Shown here in pieces: positions 408 through 10,053 of a stretch of DNA of 43,989 nt; position 1 is the first letter of the stretch; every line of letters begins with the position of its first letter. The position numbers and the translations under genes were made by a program. This DNA is from Methylococcales bacterium. Its GTDB lineage: Bacteria; Pseudomonadota; Gammaproteobacteria; Methylococcales; Methylomonadaceae. The notes under the pieces were generated by a model. The model was given only the letters and a program-made list of their open reading frames with translations. It searched no databases and was not told where the DNA came from. The stretch spans positions 1 to 43,989 of the forward strand of contig QVQD01000222.1 in the NCBI GenBank assembly GCA_003584875.1, given 5' to 3'.

Positions 408-992
408 ATGAATTCTGAATCGAGTACCTATAACAAAGCTGAGGTTTGCTTTTTCTCAAAAGCACAAGAAGAGTGGGGTTGTTTTGGTAACATGACGGGG
501 GGCTTCCCTTTTCGTCTTACAGAAGATACGCTGATCCCTTCTACAGAGAATCTTTACCAGGCCATGCGTTTTACTCAACACCCCGATATTCAAAAAAAAA
601 TAATCGCGCAAAAGTCTGGATACGCTGCCAAGCTAGTTTCTAAACCCTACAGAAATACGCATACCCGTGCAGACTTTGAAAAGCGTAAGTTAGAAATTAT
701 GCGCTGGTGCCTACAATTAAAACTCGCTAATCATAAAAGCTTTGGTGATGCCCTCCTGCTGACAGGTGATAAAGCCATAGTCGAGAAATCACACAATGAT
801 GCTTGGTGGGGGACTTTATTGAAAGGTGATACATTGCTTGGTATTAACATATTAGGACAGTTGTTAATGGAATTACGCGATCAGTATCGTAAGGAATTAG
901 CAGAGGGTACTACAGGGTATAAAACAGTTACGCCGCCTAACATTCCAGACTTTAACTATTTTGGAGTTGCTGCGACGGTTATCAGGAAATAG
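408..992 (+). CDS. NADAR (YbiA/DUF1768) family protein
   Basis: The protein (194 aa) matches the NADAR family. Near residue 45 STENLYQAMRF corresponds to the family's T-E-x-x-x-Q-x-x-K/R-F active-site motif, and near residue 130 NDAWWGTLLKGDTLLGINILGQLLMELR is the typical C-terminal block. NADAR proteins are glycosidases that cleave N-glycosidic bonds; some remove damaged riboflavin-pathway intermediates and others reverse ADP-ribosylation of guanine in DarT-type toxin systems. No DarT gene is adjacent, so the substrate cannot be told from context. The first 15 and last 35 residues are extra to the core domain. ATG at 408 is preceded by AGGGGGC at good spacing. It converges on the broken toxin-antitoxin pair to its right. 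Confidence 0.85.
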   Translation: MNSESSTYNKAEVCFFSKAQEEWGCFGNMTGGFPFRLTEDTLIPSTENLYQAMRFTQHPDIQKKIIAQKSGYAAKLVSKPYRNTHTRADFEKRKLEIMRWCLQLKLANHKSFGDALLLTGDKAIVEKSHNDAWWGTLLKGDTLLGINILGQLLMELRDQYRKELAEGTTGYKTVTPPNIPDFNYFGVAATVIRK

Positions 993-1058: not shown

Positions 1059-1477
1059 TCAAAAAGCAGATAAAGTTAAAAACGCAACGGCACTAATAAT
1101 CGGTGTATTGTTAACTCTCTCCATTGATAACAAATCACGCTTATCACCCGTTACAAGAAAATCGGCTTTACACTCAATAGCAATAGCTAATATTGGATTA
1201 TCATCAGGATCTTTACATAAATCTACGGCAGGCAACATTTCATAAACTAAAGCGTTTAACTTAAGTCCGTTGACCATCTGCACAGCTTCAATTGGATTGA
1301 TAAGGTTCGTAATTTTGGATAACGACTAACTCGTCGGAATTCTGCAAGTCGCCACTCTGATGTAAATAAATCAAAGTGTTTCTTTTTCCATGCTTGATTG
1401 ATTCTATCGGGAGGCGTGTCTACCGTAATAAGCGCAGCGATTAAAATAGCAGTATCTAAAACTATTCTTACCTTAAT
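1059..1477 (-). pseudogene. PIN-domain toxin, frameshifted
   Basis: Read on the minus strand, the sequence gives VRIVLDTAILIAALI, then FTSEWRLAEFRRVSRYPKLRTL, and then changes frame to reach INPIEAVQMVNGLKLNALVYEML and DPDDNPILAIAIECKADFLVTGDKRDLL. Together this is a complete PIN ribonuclease toxin with its acidic residues (LDT near the start, E in SEWRLAEF, DPDD, TGDKRD). The two halves are one base out of register near 1300. The ORF track shows only the C-terminal half (GTG at 1283). The start is unclear: the frame opens just inside the antitoxin's end with ATT AAG GTA AGA and lacks an ATG. The product is probably inactive unless the frameshift is a sequencing error. Confidence 0.75.
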
Positions 1478-2461: not shown

Positions 2462-3046
2462 TTAAGAGTCATTAACCCCCGTATTAACACCATCAGCATT
2501 TGTTTCGGCATCAACACCTCTTTGTATCAATTCAAAAATATTTAGCGCAGATTTATCTGCCTCATTCAAAACAAAAGGGAAAGCATAAAGCACCAACCCA
2601 TTCCCTAGATCAAACTGTTTCATTTCATTAAAATTGCTCCATTGAGGGTAAATCAAAACAAGCTTGCCTTTACCCCCTTTTAAATACTTGTGTCCATAAG
2701 CAAACATTTGATACATATCCGCTTGGCTGATGTTAGCTTTTTTGTCTTCATTGCCATTATCGTATAGCGCGTTTTGATCAATTAACTTCCATTTAGTATC
2801 TAAGATACTCACCACTTGTCCATCTTGAGATATTGCAATATCGGGTTTTAATAAAAAAGCCTTAGGGGCTTCCGATAAATACACGCTCCTGACTTGTTTC
2901 TCAACGCTGTAATTGTCTTTCGCGTTCTTTTCTAAAATTTTAGTAACATACCGTTCAAACAAGGTCTGCATGGGAAAGAGAAAAGAAATACCCTTACTAT
3001 CCCCTCTAATACTAAAAGGGCTTTGTTGATTTAAAATCAGCTTCAC
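2462..3046 (-). pseudogene. McrC-like restriction subunit, 5'-truncated remnant
   Basis: The 194-residue frame matches the C-terminal nuclease half of McrC family proteins, the partner of the McrB GTPase in methylation-dependent restriction. Visible landmarks are QSPFSIRG..KGISFLFPMQTLFERYV, then LKPDIAI and ILDTKWK (the D and D-x-K of a PD-(D/E)XK nuclease), then ISQADMYQMFAYGHKYL. Full McrC proteins are usually 350-450 residues, so the N-terminal half is missing. The ATG at 3046 lies inside the last codons of the upstream small gene, and no mcrB is present. I read it as a remnant left after a deletion or insertion; a functional short form is less likely. Confidence 0.75.
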
Positions 3047-3518: not shown

Positions 3519-3833
3519 TTTTTATCTCCCTATTTGTTTAAATATTATTGATTAATCTATATTCTTGAACATCAGTTTGTTTGCGAAAAATAAATATTCG
3601 TAAATAATAAAAAATTTGATGCTTATTGTTTTTCTTATTCCTATTCCTATTCCTAAATGCCGATCGGGGTTTCAAACCCCGATCGAAGCGTATGGATTCG
3701 CTTAAGCGTTGCTATATAACTAAAAGTAGGAATACATAATCGCAGATTTTTCAAAGATAGTTGCAATATCAAACATTTGAGAGGGGTTATAAGCCACGTA
3801 TCGCTTGAGAAAAAAATTGTACATTTTAAAATA
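3519..3833. other. Intergenic stretch with hexamer repeat and palindrome
   Basis: It contains three direct copies of a TTCCTA hexamer (TTCCTATTCCTATTCCTA, around 3636-3656) followed directly by the palindrome CGATCGGGGTTTCAAACCCCGATCG (about 3661-3685). The palindrome is a second copy of the dispersed repeat also found near 1748. The ORF at 3653-3865 is an unsupported frame. Confidence 0.55.
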
Positions 3834-5165
3834 TCAGTAACCATCCATAAAAAGCACCATTTCAACTAGCCTAACCGTCCATATTCCGTTATTTACTGGG
3901 CATTTAAATTCGTTTCCATTTCTACTGTTTAATTCGTCGCGAATTAATCTAACAATCTTACTGCCTTGAAAGACAGTATCCCAACGTCCATAACCATTAC
4001 GCCAACGAGTAGTATTATAGCGATATCTTTTACGGTTTCCCCCTCTACCTTGAACATATCCAATACCATTCAATTCTTCTGGTAATCCAATAATGCCACC
4101 TTGTAACAACATTCTTTCGAATCTAGTAACAATAGAGTGTGCCACCCTACTATCCCAAATTACTAAATGCTGATGGGGGGGTAATGCTTCTGATGCAAAA
4201 GAGGCTACCTTTGTCCAGCCACTATTCATCCTTGCATTATTGTGTGGAACTCCCAAAGAAACACTAGATAAAACATCTAAAACATCAGAATAAATAAATG
4301 TTTGAGGGACTCCACCCCATTTAAAAATTTGATTAGCCCAATCAACCAAAGCAACATGCGAATCCTTAGGAAAGTTATTAATAGCACCCATAAAATCAGC
4401 TGCTGGAGTATTAATATGAGTTAAATTTGTTAATGTTACATCTAAGTTAATCTCGGGCTTAGGCCAGAAATAGTTACTTAATCTATCCGACCAACCTGTT
4501 ATAGGATCTAGGTAGGGAGCGCCACGATACATCGGTTGATATGGATCATTATTAACATAAGTGACAAAATCTTGGATAAACGTATTAAAATTAAATACAG
4601 GTATATCTTGGTTTTGTTGATCTGTTCCATTTAAAGGTGAATCGGGAGAACTATCTTTATCTTCTACTTCATAGCCAACAGCAACCAATTTAGTAATATT
4701 TGTATTTACATCAGAAACTTCTATATCTGAATCAAGACGTGATTCGATTAATTCTTTTAGCTCATCCCAACCAGGTTGCTCCCTGCAAGACTCAAGAATG
4801 TTTCTAGCATGCTCAGTTAATTGGGCTGAATTTACAATTCGATTTGAATAAGGAGATCGAGATCTTATATGACTAAATAAATAATTATTTGCAACCATAA
4901 ATGGCTTTGTTACCTGCATAGTATTTCTGTATGACGATGGAACTAAAACTCTACTTAGATATTCAAGTGAAAATTTACGTGTATTACCTGTATTGTTATT
5001 TTCTTCTGTTTCCAAAGAGAGCATTGAATCTATTGTATTGTGCCGAGGAAGTGAGTCAGTTAGTGCGTTTAAACCATTTCCAAAGATATCAAACCATAAC
5101 TCCCAAGCAGCAAAAAACTCACAATCACCGACCTGATAATTATTTGCGTGTACAAAAACAACCAT
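3834..5165 (-). CDS. Conserved-looking protein of unknown function (443 aa)
   Basis: I do not recognise a named family. The most protein-like start is the ATG at 5165 (MVVFVHANNYQVGDCEFFAAWELWFDIFG), preceded by a GAGTGAG sequence; the ORF track starts at 5222. The middle is acidic and variable. The C-terminal 180 residues look conserved: VALVDWANQIFKWGGVPQ, then SGWTKVASFASEALPPHQHLVIWDSRVAHSIVTRF, a basic Gly/Arg stretch YVQGRGGNRKRYRY, and a final WTVRLVEMVLFMDGY. The K-V-A-S-F..V-I-W-D-S-R-V-A block is reminiscent of helix-hairpin-helix DNA glycosylase-like proteins with a catalytic Asp, but this is a guess. The 140-aa gene lies just upstream on the same strand. Confidence 0.6.
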   Translation of the reverse strand: MVVFVHANNYQVGDCEFFAAWELWFDIFGNGLNALTDSLPRHNTIDSMLSLETEENNNTGNTRKFSLEYLSRVLVPSSYRNTMQVTKPFMVANNYLFSHIRSRSPYSNRIVNSAQLTEHARNILESCREQPGWDELKELIESRLDSDIEVSDVNTNITKLVAVGYEVEDKDSSPDSPLNGTDQQNQDIPVFNFNTFIQDFVTYVNNDPYQPMYRGAPYLDPITGWSDRLSNYFWPKPEINLDVTLTNLTHINTPAADFMGAINNFPKDSHVALVDWANQIFKWGGVPQTFIYSDVLDVLSSVSLGVPHNNARMNSGWTKVASFASEALPPHQHLVIWDSRVAHSIVTRFERMLLQGGIIGLPEELNGIGYVQGRGGNRKRYRYNTTRWRNGYGRWDTVFQGSKIVRLIRDELNSRNGNEFKCPVNNGIWTVRLVEMVLFMDGY

Positions 5166-5239
5166 AAAAATCTCACTCAATAAAAAAAATGACATGTAAT
5201 TTTCGTTAATAGCTTCAATCATTAACCCAAATTACATAG

Positions 5240-5662
5240 CTAAGGTAGTAATCTCAAAAAACCCCTACCATTTTCACAAACTTCTGCACTGCCCAGTATT
5301 CGACAAATAGGCACAATTCTTTGAAGCACCGCTTCACCAATATTTTTTCCATAAACAACTTTTGCCACATGTCCTTCAATAGAATTTAACGGCAATAATT
5401 CATGACCAAGCCCAATATTCGCGCCATTGGCTGTACCCTTTTTTGCTTGATTATCATCGCTTAAGCTCAATAGTGAGATCGTTGCAACAAAAACATCTAT
5501 GGGTAAAAAAGGATAATTTCCCAAATTATTTACATTTACTCCTAATATTTTTCCATCGCAGATAACTGGTGTAACAGTCATTGCCCCTCCTCCTTGTAAT
5601 TCAATTTCAGTATTACCATTGATGTTTAGCAGATAATTTTTTAACTCTTGCAAATGATTCAT
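5240..5662 (-). CDS. Partner protein of unknown function (140 aa)
   Basis: ATG at 5662 opens MNHLQELKNYLLNINGNTEIELQGGGAMTVTPVICDGKILGVNVNN. The C-terminal half, GLGHELLPLNSIEGHVAKVVYGKNIGEAVLQRIVPICRILGSAEVCENGRGFLRL, looks like a conserved globular domain with a recurring LPLxSIEGHxA..VYGK pattern, but I cannot name it. No membrane segment or nucleic-acid-binding motif is obvious. The gene ends 74 bp before the preferred start of the 443-aa gene (17 bp before the longer one), so the two are very likely one operon transcribed leftward from the AT-rich region near 5700-5870. Confidence 0.6.
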   Translation of the reverse strand: MNHLQELKNYLLNINGNTEIELQGGGAMTVTPVICDGKILGVNVNNLGNYPFLPIDVFVATISLLSLSDDNQAKKGTANGANIGLGHELLPLNSIEGHVAKVVYGKNIGEAVLQRIVPICRILGSAEVCENGRGFLRLLP

Positions 5663-5878
5663 AATATTGCCTATTTTATTGATTTAAATTAACCTTGTAA
5701 TCCTGGCCAGTATATTAACACACAAATAGTTTTGTTTGAATAAAAACAATACATCTTATTAAAACAAAACATTTTTTTAATTTGTTGTAATAAATAAAGA
5801 GTTTTCTTATAATTTGTAGGGCAAGAGAATATTATTATAAAATTATAATTTATTACATAATCTGTGGAGGGATTAAAT

Positions 5879-6156
5879 ATGTCACAAGTCATTAGGCAAT
5901 TAGCTATATTGAGTAAAATACCTGAGACACCAAAAGAAATCACTTTAAATGTGTTAATGGAATACCTATAGATATAGGTTTCAAATTTTCTAGGCGCAGC
6001 TTAGAAAGGGATATAATTCAGTTGGAATCTGCGTTGCCAGGGATATTTTTAGTATCAAAGCCTGAAAGCTACCATGATAATATTGATAAATCATCACGAC
6101 TTTCTTTTTCACAATCGAAACTACCGTTTATAAAAATACTAAAACAAAATGAATAA
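5879..6156 (+). pseudogene. N-terminal HTH part of a WYL-type regulator, frameshifted
   Basis: ATG at 5879, after GGAGGG, gives MSQVIRQLAILSKIPETPKEITLNVLMEYL and then stops at TAG. One base out of frame the sequence continues IDIGFKFSRRSLERDIIQLESALPGIFLVSKPESYHDN..LPFIKILKQNE. Joined, this is the winged-helix start of a WYL-family transcription factor; compare the N-terminus of the gene at 7999-9069. The WYL domain itself is absent. The reading frame ends at TAA 6154, overlapping the next gene by 8 bp. It could be a short DNA-binding autoregulator with a sequencing error, or a broken gene. Confidence 0.55.
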
Positions 6157-6812: not shown

Positions 6813-7196
6813 CTAAGTTGTTATAAACACATCATCCGGTGACATAATGCGCACACCGGTTTGATACCCTTTTATATAGCCATGCCCAGCAGGGCCAGAC
6901 ATCGCAGACTCTGAATACGTAGGCAAATTACCCGCGACCAAAAGCGTTAAGCCCTGCTCTGCCATTTGGGTATTGCAGTCTTTAAGGGCTTGGCTATAGG
7001 TTTCGGAGTAACCTTTACTCCTTCCTGCTATGGTTACATCTTTGTAATTAATTATGATTTGATAACCCCAAAACATACGACTCTTGCCCGTTGTAATAAT
7101 ACCCAGCTCATAGTGACACTGGGTTCTTTCATTAGTATCAGTTACAAGCACAGTGCAAATGCCCTGATCTCTAATCTCAAAGTGTTCCCAACTCAT
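6813..7196 (-). CDS. Hypothetical protein (127 aa)
   Basis: ATG at 7196 opens MSWEHFEIRDQGICTVLVTDTNERTQCHYELGIITTGKSRMFWGYQIIINYKDVTIAGRSKGYSETYSQALKDCNTQMAEQGLTLLVAGNLPTYSESAMSGPAGHGYIKGYQTGVRIMSPDDVFITT. It is predicted to be soluble, with alternating beta strands followed by one helix; the G-Y-S-E-T-Y-S-Q-A-L-K-D-C segment looks like the start of that helix. No known domain recognised. It begins 3 bp after the stop of the 87-aa gene upstream, so the two form a tight two-gene unit. Confidence 0.5.
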   Translation of the reverse strand: MSWEHFEIRDQGICTVLVTDTNERTQCHYELGIITTGKSRMFWGYQIIINYKDVTIAGRSKGYSETYSQALKDCNTQMAEQGLTLLVAGNLPTYSESAMSGPAGHGYIKGYQTGVRIMSPDDVFITT

Positions 7197-7199
7197 ATT

Positions 7200-7463
7200 C
7201 TAAATTCTCTTAACATATTGTTTTCCGAACATCATTAAAAACTGATCAACTTGACTGTAAGTTGCTCCATTAAAGTGGTTATGGATAGGCATCATAAAAT
7301 CCTTCAAATTGATTATATCAGCCCAATTTGAGGGCTTCTTCTTAATCCGCATTGCGGGTCTCAGTTGACGTAATAACGCATTCATGCCCCTGAAGTTGTG
7401 CTGATCAACAATAGGGGCAATTTGATTGGCAATTTGTTCTGCTTCGTTTTGTGTAATAGGCAT
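7200..7463 (-). CDS. Hypothetical protein (87 aa), first gene of a pair
   Basis: ATG at 7463 is preceded by GGAGTATAGCG, a good ribosome-binding site. The product MPITQNEAEQIANQIAPIVDQHNFRGMNALLRQLRPAMRIKKKPSNWADIINLKDFMMPIHNHFNGATYSQVDQFLMMFGKQYVKRI is mostly helical with a basic centre (RPAMRIKKKPS). It is a small soluble protein of unknown function, divergently arranged with the 124-aa gene and cotranscribed with the 127-aa gene. Confidence 0.5.
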   Translation of the reverse strand: MPITQNEAEQIANQIAPIVDQHNFRGMNALLRQLRPAMRIKKKPSNWADIINLKDFMMPIHNHFNGATYSQVDQFLMMFGKQYVKRI

Positions 7464-7633: not shown

Positions 7634-8008
7634 ATGAGAATACCCACTTTTAAACAACTAGAAGCTGATCAACTAAGAGAGGGAGGCGTTTCTTATTCAT
7701 ATGCTATGCGCATGCATCCAAATCCTTATTTTTATAAATACTATTGGTGGGTATTTTGGAAGGGTAGCCCTTGTGAGGGACACGCGTTTTTAAATAGTTC
7801 TAAGACGCGATTAAGTACTAAAGAGGCTTATGAGCTGCGTAATAAATTGGCTGAGGAGAATTTAAGCTACTATTTATACAATGAAAGTTATCCACGGCTT
7901 GACGCCTCGAATAATCCTTGGGATCCCTCGTCTGAGAGGTGGAATGATACTCAATGGGCCATAGCTTATGATGAAGACACGGACGAACCTTACAAGGGTC
8001 ATAAATAG
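7634..8008 (+). CDS. Hypothetical protein (124 aa), aromatic-rich
   Basis: ATG at 7634 has a GAGG site 9 bp upstream. The sequence is rich in Tyr and Trp (FYKYYWWVFWKG, YYLYNESYPRL, ERWNDTQWAIAYDED) and acidic at its C-terminus. No domain recognised. It converges on the WYL regulator, and the two stop regions overlap by 10 bp. The aromatic composition is not that of a membrane helix, so it is probably a small soluble accessory-region protein. Confidence 0.5.
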   Translation: MRIPTFKQLEADQLREGGVSYSYAMRMHPNPYFYKYYWWVFWKGSPCEGHAFLNSSKTRLSTKEAYELRNKLAEENLSYYLYNESYPRLDASNNPWDPSSERWNDTQWAIAYDEDTDEPYKGHK

Positions 8009-9069
8009 GTATCTGCAACATATCGGTCTAGCATAGCTTTTGCAGTCTTAGCCATTTTGTCGCGCAAATGCTGAGGTTCTTTGACTTCTACGCGTGAGCC
8101 AAAGCTTAATAGCCACCAATAGAGTTGCTCGGTTTCTTTAATGGTGGCACTGACCTGATAGTGATCATCGTCAATCTTTTCTACTCTTTGATCTTTTGAC
8201 AGTTTTGATTCGGAGAGGTGATTAGCGGTTATGGTGTCGAACACACCTACAAAATTAATCATGTCATAAGCTGCCGGTCCAGTTAAGTTAAAGCCCATTT
8301 GACCATCTTGTAAACAGTCTTCTAGAGTGCAGTTATCTATTTGTTCTACGGGGTTGTCCTCAAGTAACTCTATTTTTTTAATTCTATGCAGTGCAAATTG
8401 CCGTCGCTCATGAGTACCTACTTTAGTCGCGATAAGGTAATGACTGCCATTCCTCAACACTAAGCCAATGGGGTTTAACGAATAATTATTGGTTTTTGAA
8501 TCGTGGCGCGTATAGGTGATGTTAATTTGCTTTTCTGATAGTAGCGCCTGCCCCACTGCATCATTAATAACTGGCTTTACGACAGGGTGTATTAAGGGTT
8601 GCGTAGCTTCTACTATGGCAATTTTATTTTGCCATTTACTGAGAGCGTTTTTCTCAAAATGCGTTAACACGTTTGCCGCCTCTTTAAATAAAGGTTCTAA
8701 ATCATCTATAGTTACTTTAGGCAACAGGCTCACTAGATATTTGTTAACGAGGCGTAACGACAAGGCTTGGTTAATGTTTAAACCTACCAGTTTTAACTCC
8801 TTATATTCTTTGCTCCAACTATAGCGATTAGATTTATCATTCTCAAATTCGGCATTTGGAACGCGTCGCTTATAATTGGGGTAGGGTTCGCAAATCAGTT
8901 TATTTTCAAAAACAGCAAGCAAATCCTCCATGTCTCGTTGCACTTTGCGCGTATCGACTTTGAATCTCTGATTTTCTAGTTTAATTCGAATTTTTCCAGC
9001 GCTGATAGCTTGAGGATGTTGTGGCAGCATTAAAATAATTTGTAGTAATCGATCAATTTGTTCGCTCAT
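7999..9069 (-). CDS. WYL-domain transcriptional regulator
   Basis: A DeoR/WYL-type regulator of 356 aa. Residues 1-60 form a winged helix (MSEQIDRLLQIILMLPQHPQAISAGKIRIKLE..VDTRKVQRDMEDL). Residues about 165-235 form the WYL domain (LLSEKQINITYTRHDSKTNNYSLNPIGLVLRNGSHYLIATKVGTHERRQFALHRIKKIELL), and the C-terminal WCX-like part ends in YWWLLSFGSRVEVKEPQHLRDKM. In the WYL motif itself the Trp is replaced (GSHYLIA), which is common. Such regulators often sense nucleic acid or nucleotide ligands and control defence or DNA-repair genes. It is divergent from the phosphatase gene, with about 130 bp of shared promoter region between them. Confidence 0.85.
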   Translation of the reverse strand: MSEQIDRLLQIILMLPQHPQAISAGKIRIKLENQRFKVDTRKVQRDMEDLLAVFENKLICEPYPNYKRRVPNAEFENDKSNRYSWSKEYKELKLVGLNINQALSLRLVNKYLVSLLPKVTIDDLEPLFKEAANVLTHFEKNALSKWQNKIAIVEATQPLIHPVVKPVINDAVGQALLSEKQINITYTRHDSKTNNYSLNPIGLVLRNGSHYLIATKVGTHERRQFALHRIKKIELLEDNPVEQIDNCTLEDCLQDGQMGFNLTGPAAYDMINFVGVFDTITANHLSESKLSKDQRVEKIDDDHYQVSATIKETEQLYWWLLSFGSRVEVKEPQHLRDKMAKTAKAMLDRYVADTYL

Positions 9070-9204
9070 AATTGCTTTATCATCATTAAGTTTGTTGTTA
9101 TTAATGCCGTCTTATTTAAGCGTCATTGCTTGTCGTGTTAATTATTTATAGTATCAAGTTTTAAGTTAGTTTCAACTCATATTGTTATTTAGAGAGTGTG
9201 TTAT

Positions 9205-10053
9205 ATGGTGCAATGTTCGCTTATACAAAAATTACCTAGCAATGCTATTGGACGAGATTTCGTGATTGGCGATTTGCATGGTTGTTTTGATTTATTAGAA
9301 AGTTTGATGAAGGCTGTCGATTTTAATATTGATCAGGATCGGTTATTTGCTGTTGGAGATTTAGTTGATCGCGGCCCTTATTCTTTACGTTGTTTAGAGT
9401 TGATTGAACAGCCCTGGTTTTATTCGGTTATGGGTAATCATGAGGGGATGATGTTGGATTATTTTGAGGTGTATCAACAGAAAAGCTATATAGGCTCTAA
9501 TTTTGATTTTGATGAGTCTGATGAGATTGGTTATCTTCTGTATGGTGGCGAGTGGGTTAAAGACTATTATCATTCGGATAATGGCACTATGAGTAAAGAG
9601 TTTGATCATGGTTTAGAGCTTGCTGCAAGTCTACCTTTGTTAATAGTGGTTGGGGAAAATGATCAGCGCTTTCATATTGTTCATTCTGAATTGTTGAGGC
9701 CAGATTATTCGACTAATGACATAAAGGTTTGGTTAGATAGTGATATTGATCAATGGCTCTCTAGTAACGCTATACCTGAGCGCATTAAGGAGCGGTTTTA
9801 TTGGGGACGAACACTTATGGGAGGTCATTTAGATCCTGTAACTTCGATTCAAAATGGTCTATCTAAGACTTTTTGTGGACACACCATTGGTAATAACATT
9901 AGGCAGAAATTATCACATATTTGTTTGGATACTGGCGCTTATTCATCTGATGATACAACTGCTTACAGCTTAACAATTTACGATATAAAGGCTGGGAACT
10001 GGGTGTCGGCTTCTTATTGTCGTAGTGAGGTAACTTATGGTGATTTTGTTTAG
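9205..10053 (+). CDS. Calcineurin-like metallophosphoesterase (PrpA/PrpB-like)
   Basis: The protein has the full metallophosphatase signature: VIGDLHGCFDLL, AVGDLVDRGPYS, VMGNHEGMML, the later metal-ligand histidine in HIVHSEL, and FCGHTIGNN. Order and spacing match the lambda-phosphatase/PrpA-PrpB group of serine/threonine protein phosphatases that use two metal ions. The ORF track begins at a GTG (9196); the ATG at 9205 (MVQCSLIQKLPSNAIGRDF) is a better start because an AGAGAG site lies 8-14 bp upstream of it. It is soluble and stands alone, followed immediately by the 158-bp repeat array. Confidence 0.88.
   Translation: MVQCSLIQKLPSNAIGRDFVIGDLHGCFDLLESLMKAVDFNIDQDRLFAVGDLVDRGPYSLRCLELIEQPWFYSVMGNHEGMMLDYFEVYQQKSYIGSNFDFDESDEIGYLLYGGEWVKDYYHSDNGTMSKEFDHGLELAASLPLLIVVGENDQRFHIVHSELLRPDYSTNDIKVWLDSDIDQWLSSNAIPERIKERFYWGRTLMGGHLDPVTSIQNGLSKTFCGHTIGNNIRQKLSHICLDTGAYSSDDTTAYSLTIYDIKAGNWVSASYCRSEVTYGDFV

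Follow-up and report, generated by a model that had tools for sequence, protein, structure and literature searches.

The window, a stretch of 43,989 nucleotides from a Methylococcales bacterium (contig QVQD01000222.1), encodes a 443-aa protein that belongs to a genuine, apparently undescribed family, patchily spread in bacteria. The reproducible partner of this protein is a WYL regulator and not the 140-aa gene beside it. Judged from the alignments, the invariant residues of the family form the pattern of an active site, and we put at roughly 40% the probability that the protein acts on DNA as a glycosylase-like enzyme, within a defence or damage-response module under WYL control.

The two genes

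The original prediction placed two co-oriented open reading frames, of 140 and 443 aa, in this part of the window, and both are real and lie on the minus strand. The gene for the 140-aa protein (5,240 to 5,662) is upstream of the large gene (3,834 to 5,165, minus strand), and 74 nt separate it from the ATG at 5,165. The longest open reading frame of the large gene, 3,834 to 5,222, starts at an upstream ATG and would yield 462 aa; the 443-aa protein begins at the second ATG. We prefer this shorter form because the homologues align to the start at 5,165 and because a GAGTGAGATTTTT / GAGTGAG stretch stands just 5' of it. No ribosome-site-like stretch accompanies the start at 5,222.

Profile searches and structure prediction had been proposed for both proteins. 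The large protein was modelled, and neither protein has a convincing match in Pfam, NCBIfam, PADLOC, PHROGs, or the PDB sequences.

The claim that the two genes form a conserved unit fails. The 140-aa family is missing from all 29 genomes searched that carry the large protein, from 30 neighbourhoods of the large gene, and from further genomes of the class. The sole other place where it was found is a Pseudomonas luteola plasmid (NZ_CP044084.1), where the one relative found (46% over 98 aa) adjoins a TM0106-type nuclease gene. The same 16-kb stretch of that plasmid also holds WYL genes and relatives of the large protein and of a 124-aa protein encoded elsewhere in the window, and thus all of these belong to one gene pool. 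The short gap on a common strand and the presence of both families in this single plasmid island are what a toxin-antitoxin-like or two-gene defence unit would predict, but the absence of the 140-aa family from the other genomes and neighbourhoods makes such a unit very improbable, and even in P. luteola the distant relative of the large protein lies 3.7 kb from the 140-aa relative, with other genes between. The best reading of the 140-aa gene is that it is a local passenger or accessory. A match of the 140-aa protein to beta-propellers (8prj, 6g6o) was rejected: its E-value is summed over the numerous repeats in a designed protein, none of the stretches passes individually, and the plasmid relative has no such match.

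Distribution of the family

Among about 200 relatives searched, the large protein was present in the window's own genome alone, and a sample of the phylum contained clear homologues in two genomes (39% over the full length with E = 1.5e-77 in one, and E = 2.8e-20 in the other). A three-sequence alignment, used as the query against one genome per species, identified 30 loci with members of the family, which are full-length in the long clade. Most belong to Proteobacteria; the taxa include Paraburkholderia, Massilia, Janthinobacterium, Zoogloea, Azonexaceae, Dechloromonas, Pseudomonas, Rheinheimera, and Alishewanella, as well as Oceanospirillaceae, Porphyrobacter, Neoroseomonas, Planctomycetota, and Zipacnadia. 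Membership in a housekeeping family, the outcome that was to count against the original prediction, is rejected on this patchy distribution (1 in 200 relatives). Wherever features are given, the annotated members are labelled "hypothetical protein", and no tested member has a convincing match in Pfam or PADLOC.

A short version of the protein is encoded by the P. luteola plasmid, by 113 Pseudomonas plasmid records, many of 300 to 600 kb, and by records from Paraburkholderia and Cupriavidus (Burkholderiales). It also occurs on one unverified human-gut phage contig (MT835507.1, locus L080), with the conserved lysine and aspartate in place. The short plasmid versions are without the long N-terminal region, yet they retain the conserved K, D, E, R, and Y/W residues. 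Among the viral contigs of IMG/VR, relatives of neither the 140-aa nor the 443-aa protein were found. At one Pseudomonas plasmid locus with a short version (L075), a Fic-family gene is close by.

Invariant residues and predicted structure

Alignment of the 30 members reveals numerous invariant positions: R228, Y232, W234, W283, G284, S315, K319, D338, S339, R340, V341, G369, G376, R378, W388, Y392, R432, E435, L438-F439-M440, G442, and Y443 are among them. When 7 short versions are added, YxW, WG, K319, D338, R340, V341, E435, LFM, and GY are still kept in 37 of 37 sequences. In all of these divergent members the lysine of TK, the aspartate of D-x-R-V, and the LFM-x-GY at the end of the protein are invariant, and K319 and D338 are unchanged while identity drifts to about 20%. 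All of the motifs that had been singled out are present, and KVASF..VIWDSRVA and WTVRLVEMVLFMDGY are among the best conserved blocks of the large protein in the 30 homologues, beyond chance. The basic RGG-like stretch corresponds to a conserved block, GRGG(S/T)RPR, and not to a low-complexity RGG region.

Two residues stand out. K319, within MNSGWTKVASF (codon at 4,209 to 4,211, minus strand), is a putative Schiff-base lysine, and D338, within VIWDSRVA (codon at 4,152 to 4,154, minus strand), is a putative catalytic aspartate that would cap the following helix. In OGG1 the active site reads LPGVGTKVA...VPVD, with the lysine and the aspartate 19 residues apart; the spacing in the window's protein is also 19 residues. 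MNSGWTKVA is equal in layout to the OGG1 sequence, and the K/D pair, its spacing, and the positions of the helices resemble the HhH-GPD/OGG site.

The predicted structure of the whole protein has a pLDDT of 84 and a pTM of 0.75. The C-terminal 253 residues modelled alone reach a pLDDT of 92 and a pTM of 0.91. This C-terminal domain (3,834 to 4,595, minus strand) is mostly helical and conserved in all members, and it is the putative glycosylase-like catalytic part. Helices 292-304 and 315-325 are joined by a hairpin, with K319 near the start of the second, and D338 lies directly before helix 339-355. A lysine placed after a helix and hairpin, with an aspartate before the next helix, is the layout of an HhH-GPD active site. 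The helix-hairpin-helix, glycosylase-like segment proposed from the sequence is thus present in the model, with its conserved lysine and with the invariant aspartate about 19 residues on, at a helix start.

Similarity of fold is another matter. Foldseek found no HhH-GPD or other match at E<0.001 in PDB or BFVD, either for the full model or for the high-confidence domain, and therefore does not confirm the glycosylase fold. The least bad PDB matches of the domain include the queuine-salvage DUF2419 (E of about 0.5, TM 0.2), which is not significant. PF00730 and the related HhH-GPD families of Pfam match none of the 30 members. A comparison of the family with the genome's own Nth revealed no similarity, a weak test, since the profile was built from one protein and the second sequence, from L074, came from a wrong reading frame. 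A fold relation to HhH-GPD is something that we infer, as are catalysis, substrate, regulation, and a part in defence; the family itself, its invariant residues, its link to WYL regulators, and its island setting are established. With this qualification, glycosylase activity is the best single mechanism for the large protein, although we hold it tentatively, at the odds given for the module as a whole.

The N-terminal region (4,599 to 5,165, minus strand) probably contains a winged helix-turn-helix and is predicted to bind DNA, as suggested by the helix-helix-strand-strand order in the model. Winged-helix proteins make up most of the best Foldseek hits for the full model, none of which is significant, and in two members this region has a weak match, below the cut-off, to DUF7669. 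Together with the WYL adjacency described below, a winged helix would suit a non-catalytic DNA-binding protein or co-regulator that partners the WYL repressor and whose conserved residues are structural. We consider such a role unlikely. Residues (K, D, E, R, and Y/W) that stay invariant in such divergent members point more typically to an active site, and the short plasmid versions keep them despite the missing N-terminal region.

Relation to PF21790

Among the closest known parallels to the large protein is PF21790, a Pfam family of putative 8-oxoguanine DNA glycosylase OGG-like proteins. Seven members or relatives of PF21790 were collected via locus L002 and plasmid matches. Like the large protein, they contain WGG..TK..I-x-D in identical order, with the K and the D conserved. 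Members of PF21790 also lie beside defence genes, namely a Shedu-domain protein (L067), an NB-ARC protein (L068), and a DEAD helicase with an N-6 methylase (L072). The two families differ in their endings, E-x-x-LFM-x-GY in the large-protein family versus a WR motif in PF21790.

The PF21790 HMM (cut-off 27 bits) matches nothing in the window's genome and no member of the family, and in searches across the order and the phylum, where PF21790 is rare, it did not match the window's protein. With hhalign, the family aligns to PF21790 at a probability of 4-8% (P of about 0.005-0.01). As a control, 170 alignments were built from clusters of neighbourhood open reading frames. The large-protein family scores highest of the 170 against PF21790, with 24.7 for its own cluster and 28.9 for the full superfamily alignment, versus a control mean of 13.5 (sd 3.0) and a next best score of 23.4. 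When the short versions are included, hhalign brings the WGG, TK, and I-x-D of the two families into register and pairs lysine with lysine and aspartate with aspartate; global hhalign gave no sensible alignment. Taken together, these comparisons of sequence are suggestive of a remote kinship with PF21790 and not of membership in it.

WYL regulators and other neighbours

A gene for a WYL-WCX regulator lies within 10 kb of the large gene, in the fetched flanks, at 18 of 31 distinct loci. It is mostly the very next gene, either divergent (for example, in Massilia loci L044-L047) or codirectional, and at L050 an additional WCX protein adjoins. Three of these genomes contain 9 WYL genes in 14.9 Mb, a density at which about 1% of loci should have one in 20 kb by chance. 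The link spans about a dozen lineages, and the loci are not independent. Another 12 to 13 of the 31 loci, including most of those in fluorescent Pseudomonas, are without a WYL gene nearby, and some of these look like ordinary chromosome.

Other neighbours recur at fewer loci. SIR2 genes are found at L036, L037, and L043, and a double-AAA ATPase, which is IetA-like according to PADLOC, at L035, L057, L058, L062, L063, and L066. McrC is present in the window and at L057, metallophosphatase-like proteins in the window and at L057 and L058, and TM0106 or DUF2779 (RecB-like) nucleases at L050, L058, and L066. Inositol-phosphatase (IMPase)/ADP-ribosylglycohydrolase-type genes occur at L039, L049, and L066 and are absent from the window; a YbjN-type protein is encoded at L039, and NADAR proteins in the window and at L062. 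The earlier view of the setting as one of defence or DNA modification is supported, as is the description of the large protein as uncharacterised; it is the two-gene system that is not.

This assortment invites a different reading, in which the large protein belongs to an ADP-ribose conflict island and serves nucleic-acid de-modification or salvage. It would work alongside NADAR and ADP-ribosylglycohydrolase, removing ADP-ribosylated or toxin-modified bases or hydrolysing free modified nucleotides, and would thus serve host repair and not attack on phage. The NADAR, ADP-ribosylglycohydrolase/IMPase, YbjN, and SIR2 neighbours argue for it, and they form the set described for ARG-centred WYL systems (PMC9503650); the DUF2419 match of the domain is a hint in this direction and no evidence by itself. 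However, the ADP-ribose genes adjoin a minority of members and no member was seen fused to an ADP-ribose-type domain, so that we regard this role, in either form, as improbable. Several members in Pseudomonas and on plasmids sit among metabolic genes, as would be expected if the protein were an uncharacterised repair or metabolic enzyme, merely borne on islands and with no part in defence. The patchy spread, the low G+C island of the window, and the repeated WYL adjacency all weigh against this explanation, which we rate as less probable still.

Comparison with known systems

Brig1-3 are glycosylases that act against phages by excising modified bases from their DNA (PMC11078745, PMC13160076). 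Brig1 and one homologue have an ADP-ribosylglycohydrolase gene next to them and SIR2 genes nearby, and Brig3 has a predicted ADP-ribosylglycohydrolase in its vicinity (PMC11078745, PMC13160076). The large-protein family is like Brig1, Brig2, and Brig3 in having ADP-ribosylglycohydrolase and SIR2 neighbours, and base removal would be a further likeness. However, Brig1 is a member of the uracil-DNA-glycosylase superfamily and Brig3 has a mixed alpha/beta fold, whereas the domain of the large protein is mostly helical with an invariant K and D, and it has no structural match to the Brig-type, uracil-DNA-glycosylase-like alpha/beta fold. The large-protein family would therefore represent a separate lineage.

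ARG-centred WYL/Nudix systems are predicted to counter phage ADP-ribosylation (PMC9503650, section 3.8). They have in common with the large-protein loci genes for WYL, ADP-ribosylglycohydrolase, calcineurin-type phosphatase, HD, NADAR, a YbjN-type chaperone, and nucleases. Unlike in those systems, the ARG gene itself is missing near most members of the family, the window's included, and neither OGG nor glycosylase occurs in the account of ARG-centred systems (PMC9503650). CapW of CBASS and BrxR of BREX are likewise divergent or adjacent WYL regulators, but the effector in the large-protein loci, unlike theirs, belongs to no described system.

How the module might work can be outlined as follows. 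A WYL repressor would silence the 443-aa gene and release it in response to single-stranded DNA or some other nucleic-acid signal; that WYL regulators sense single-stranded DNA is stated in the title of gkae1101, as cited in PMC13373217. The N-terminal winged helix would bind DNA, and the C-terminal domain would act on modified or damaged bases by flipping them out. Cleavage of the N-glycosidic bond, with Lys319 as the nucleophile and Asp338 as its partner, would leave an abasic or nicked site that may stop phage replication or start repair. The more specific proposal, that these proteins are WYL-gated DNA glycosylases directed at phage, forming an unnamed family of wide but patchy distribution whose Lys/Asp site lies in a fold unmatched in the PDB, we think rather unlikely. 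If it is true, defence by base excision was invented separately from the Brig enzymes. Phage defence by base excision has been described recently and for one enzyme superfamily; the WYL-linked family, whose members come from several phyla and from replicons of Pseudomonas and Burkholderiales, is a second candidate, with two residues to mutate.

The island in the window

The part of the window from about 2 to 7 kb has a G+C of 32-35%, versus about 37-43% to its right. A C-terminal McrC remnant (2,462 to 3,046, minus strand; PF10117, 8.7e-36) matches profile positions 192-318 of 318, in keeping with the mcrC remnant reported beside the two genes. Because of this low G+C and the truncated McrC, the region looks like a decaying accessory island.

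Divergent from the 140-aa and 443-aa genes lies the 5' part, with the HTH, of a broken WYL-type regulator gene (5,879 to 6,156, plus strand). Its frame changes between about 5,971 and 5,977, and it was recognised as two collinear tblastn pieces against the WYL protein of L043 (E = 3.5e-4). Given its divergent upstream position, the window probably once had the common layout of WYL regulator and effector back to back. The intergenic region contains a 20-nt inverted repeat (85%; 5,724 to 5,775), a possible operator, although the region is AT-rich and the evidence correspondingly weak. An intact WYL-WCX regulator is encoded some genes further on, at 7,999 to 9,069 on the minus strand (PF25583, 2.2e-16; PF13280, 1.8e-13), and its homologues adjoin family members elsewhere. 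Both WYL genes had escaped the original prediction. If the outlined mechanism holds, either the broken or the intact gene could represent the repressor.

The NADAR ADP-ribosyl hydrolase-type protein of the window (408 to 992, plus strand; PF08719, 5.8e-22) matches the NCBIfam model NF053876, "NADAR family anti-phage protein", at 5.2e-57, below that model's cut-off. The 124-aa protein (7,634 to 8,008, plus strand) is 40% identical over 125 aa to its relative in the P. luteola island and also has a 29% relative in Cupriavidus metallidurans. The metallophosphatase-like protein (9,196 to 10,053, plus strand) is divergent from the intact WYL gene. Tandem open reading frames of 127 and 87 aa are found at 6,813 to 7,463 (minus strand), the former with a relative at 44% identity on a plasmid of Sphaerotilus sulfidivorans. 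At 1,059 to 1,283 (minus strand), a 74-aa open reading frame, recognised by eye, is like the C-terminal portion of a toxin-like protein with a PIN domain (DPDDNPILAIAIECKADFLVTGDKRDLL) and is apparently a remnant. Finally, a perfect 12-bp inverted repeat, CGATCGGGGTTT-C-AAACCCCGATCG, is present at 3,661 to 3,685 and again at 1,749 to 1,773; with 9 sites in the genome (at most 3 mismatches) versus 0 for a reversed control, it is a dispersed palindromic element.
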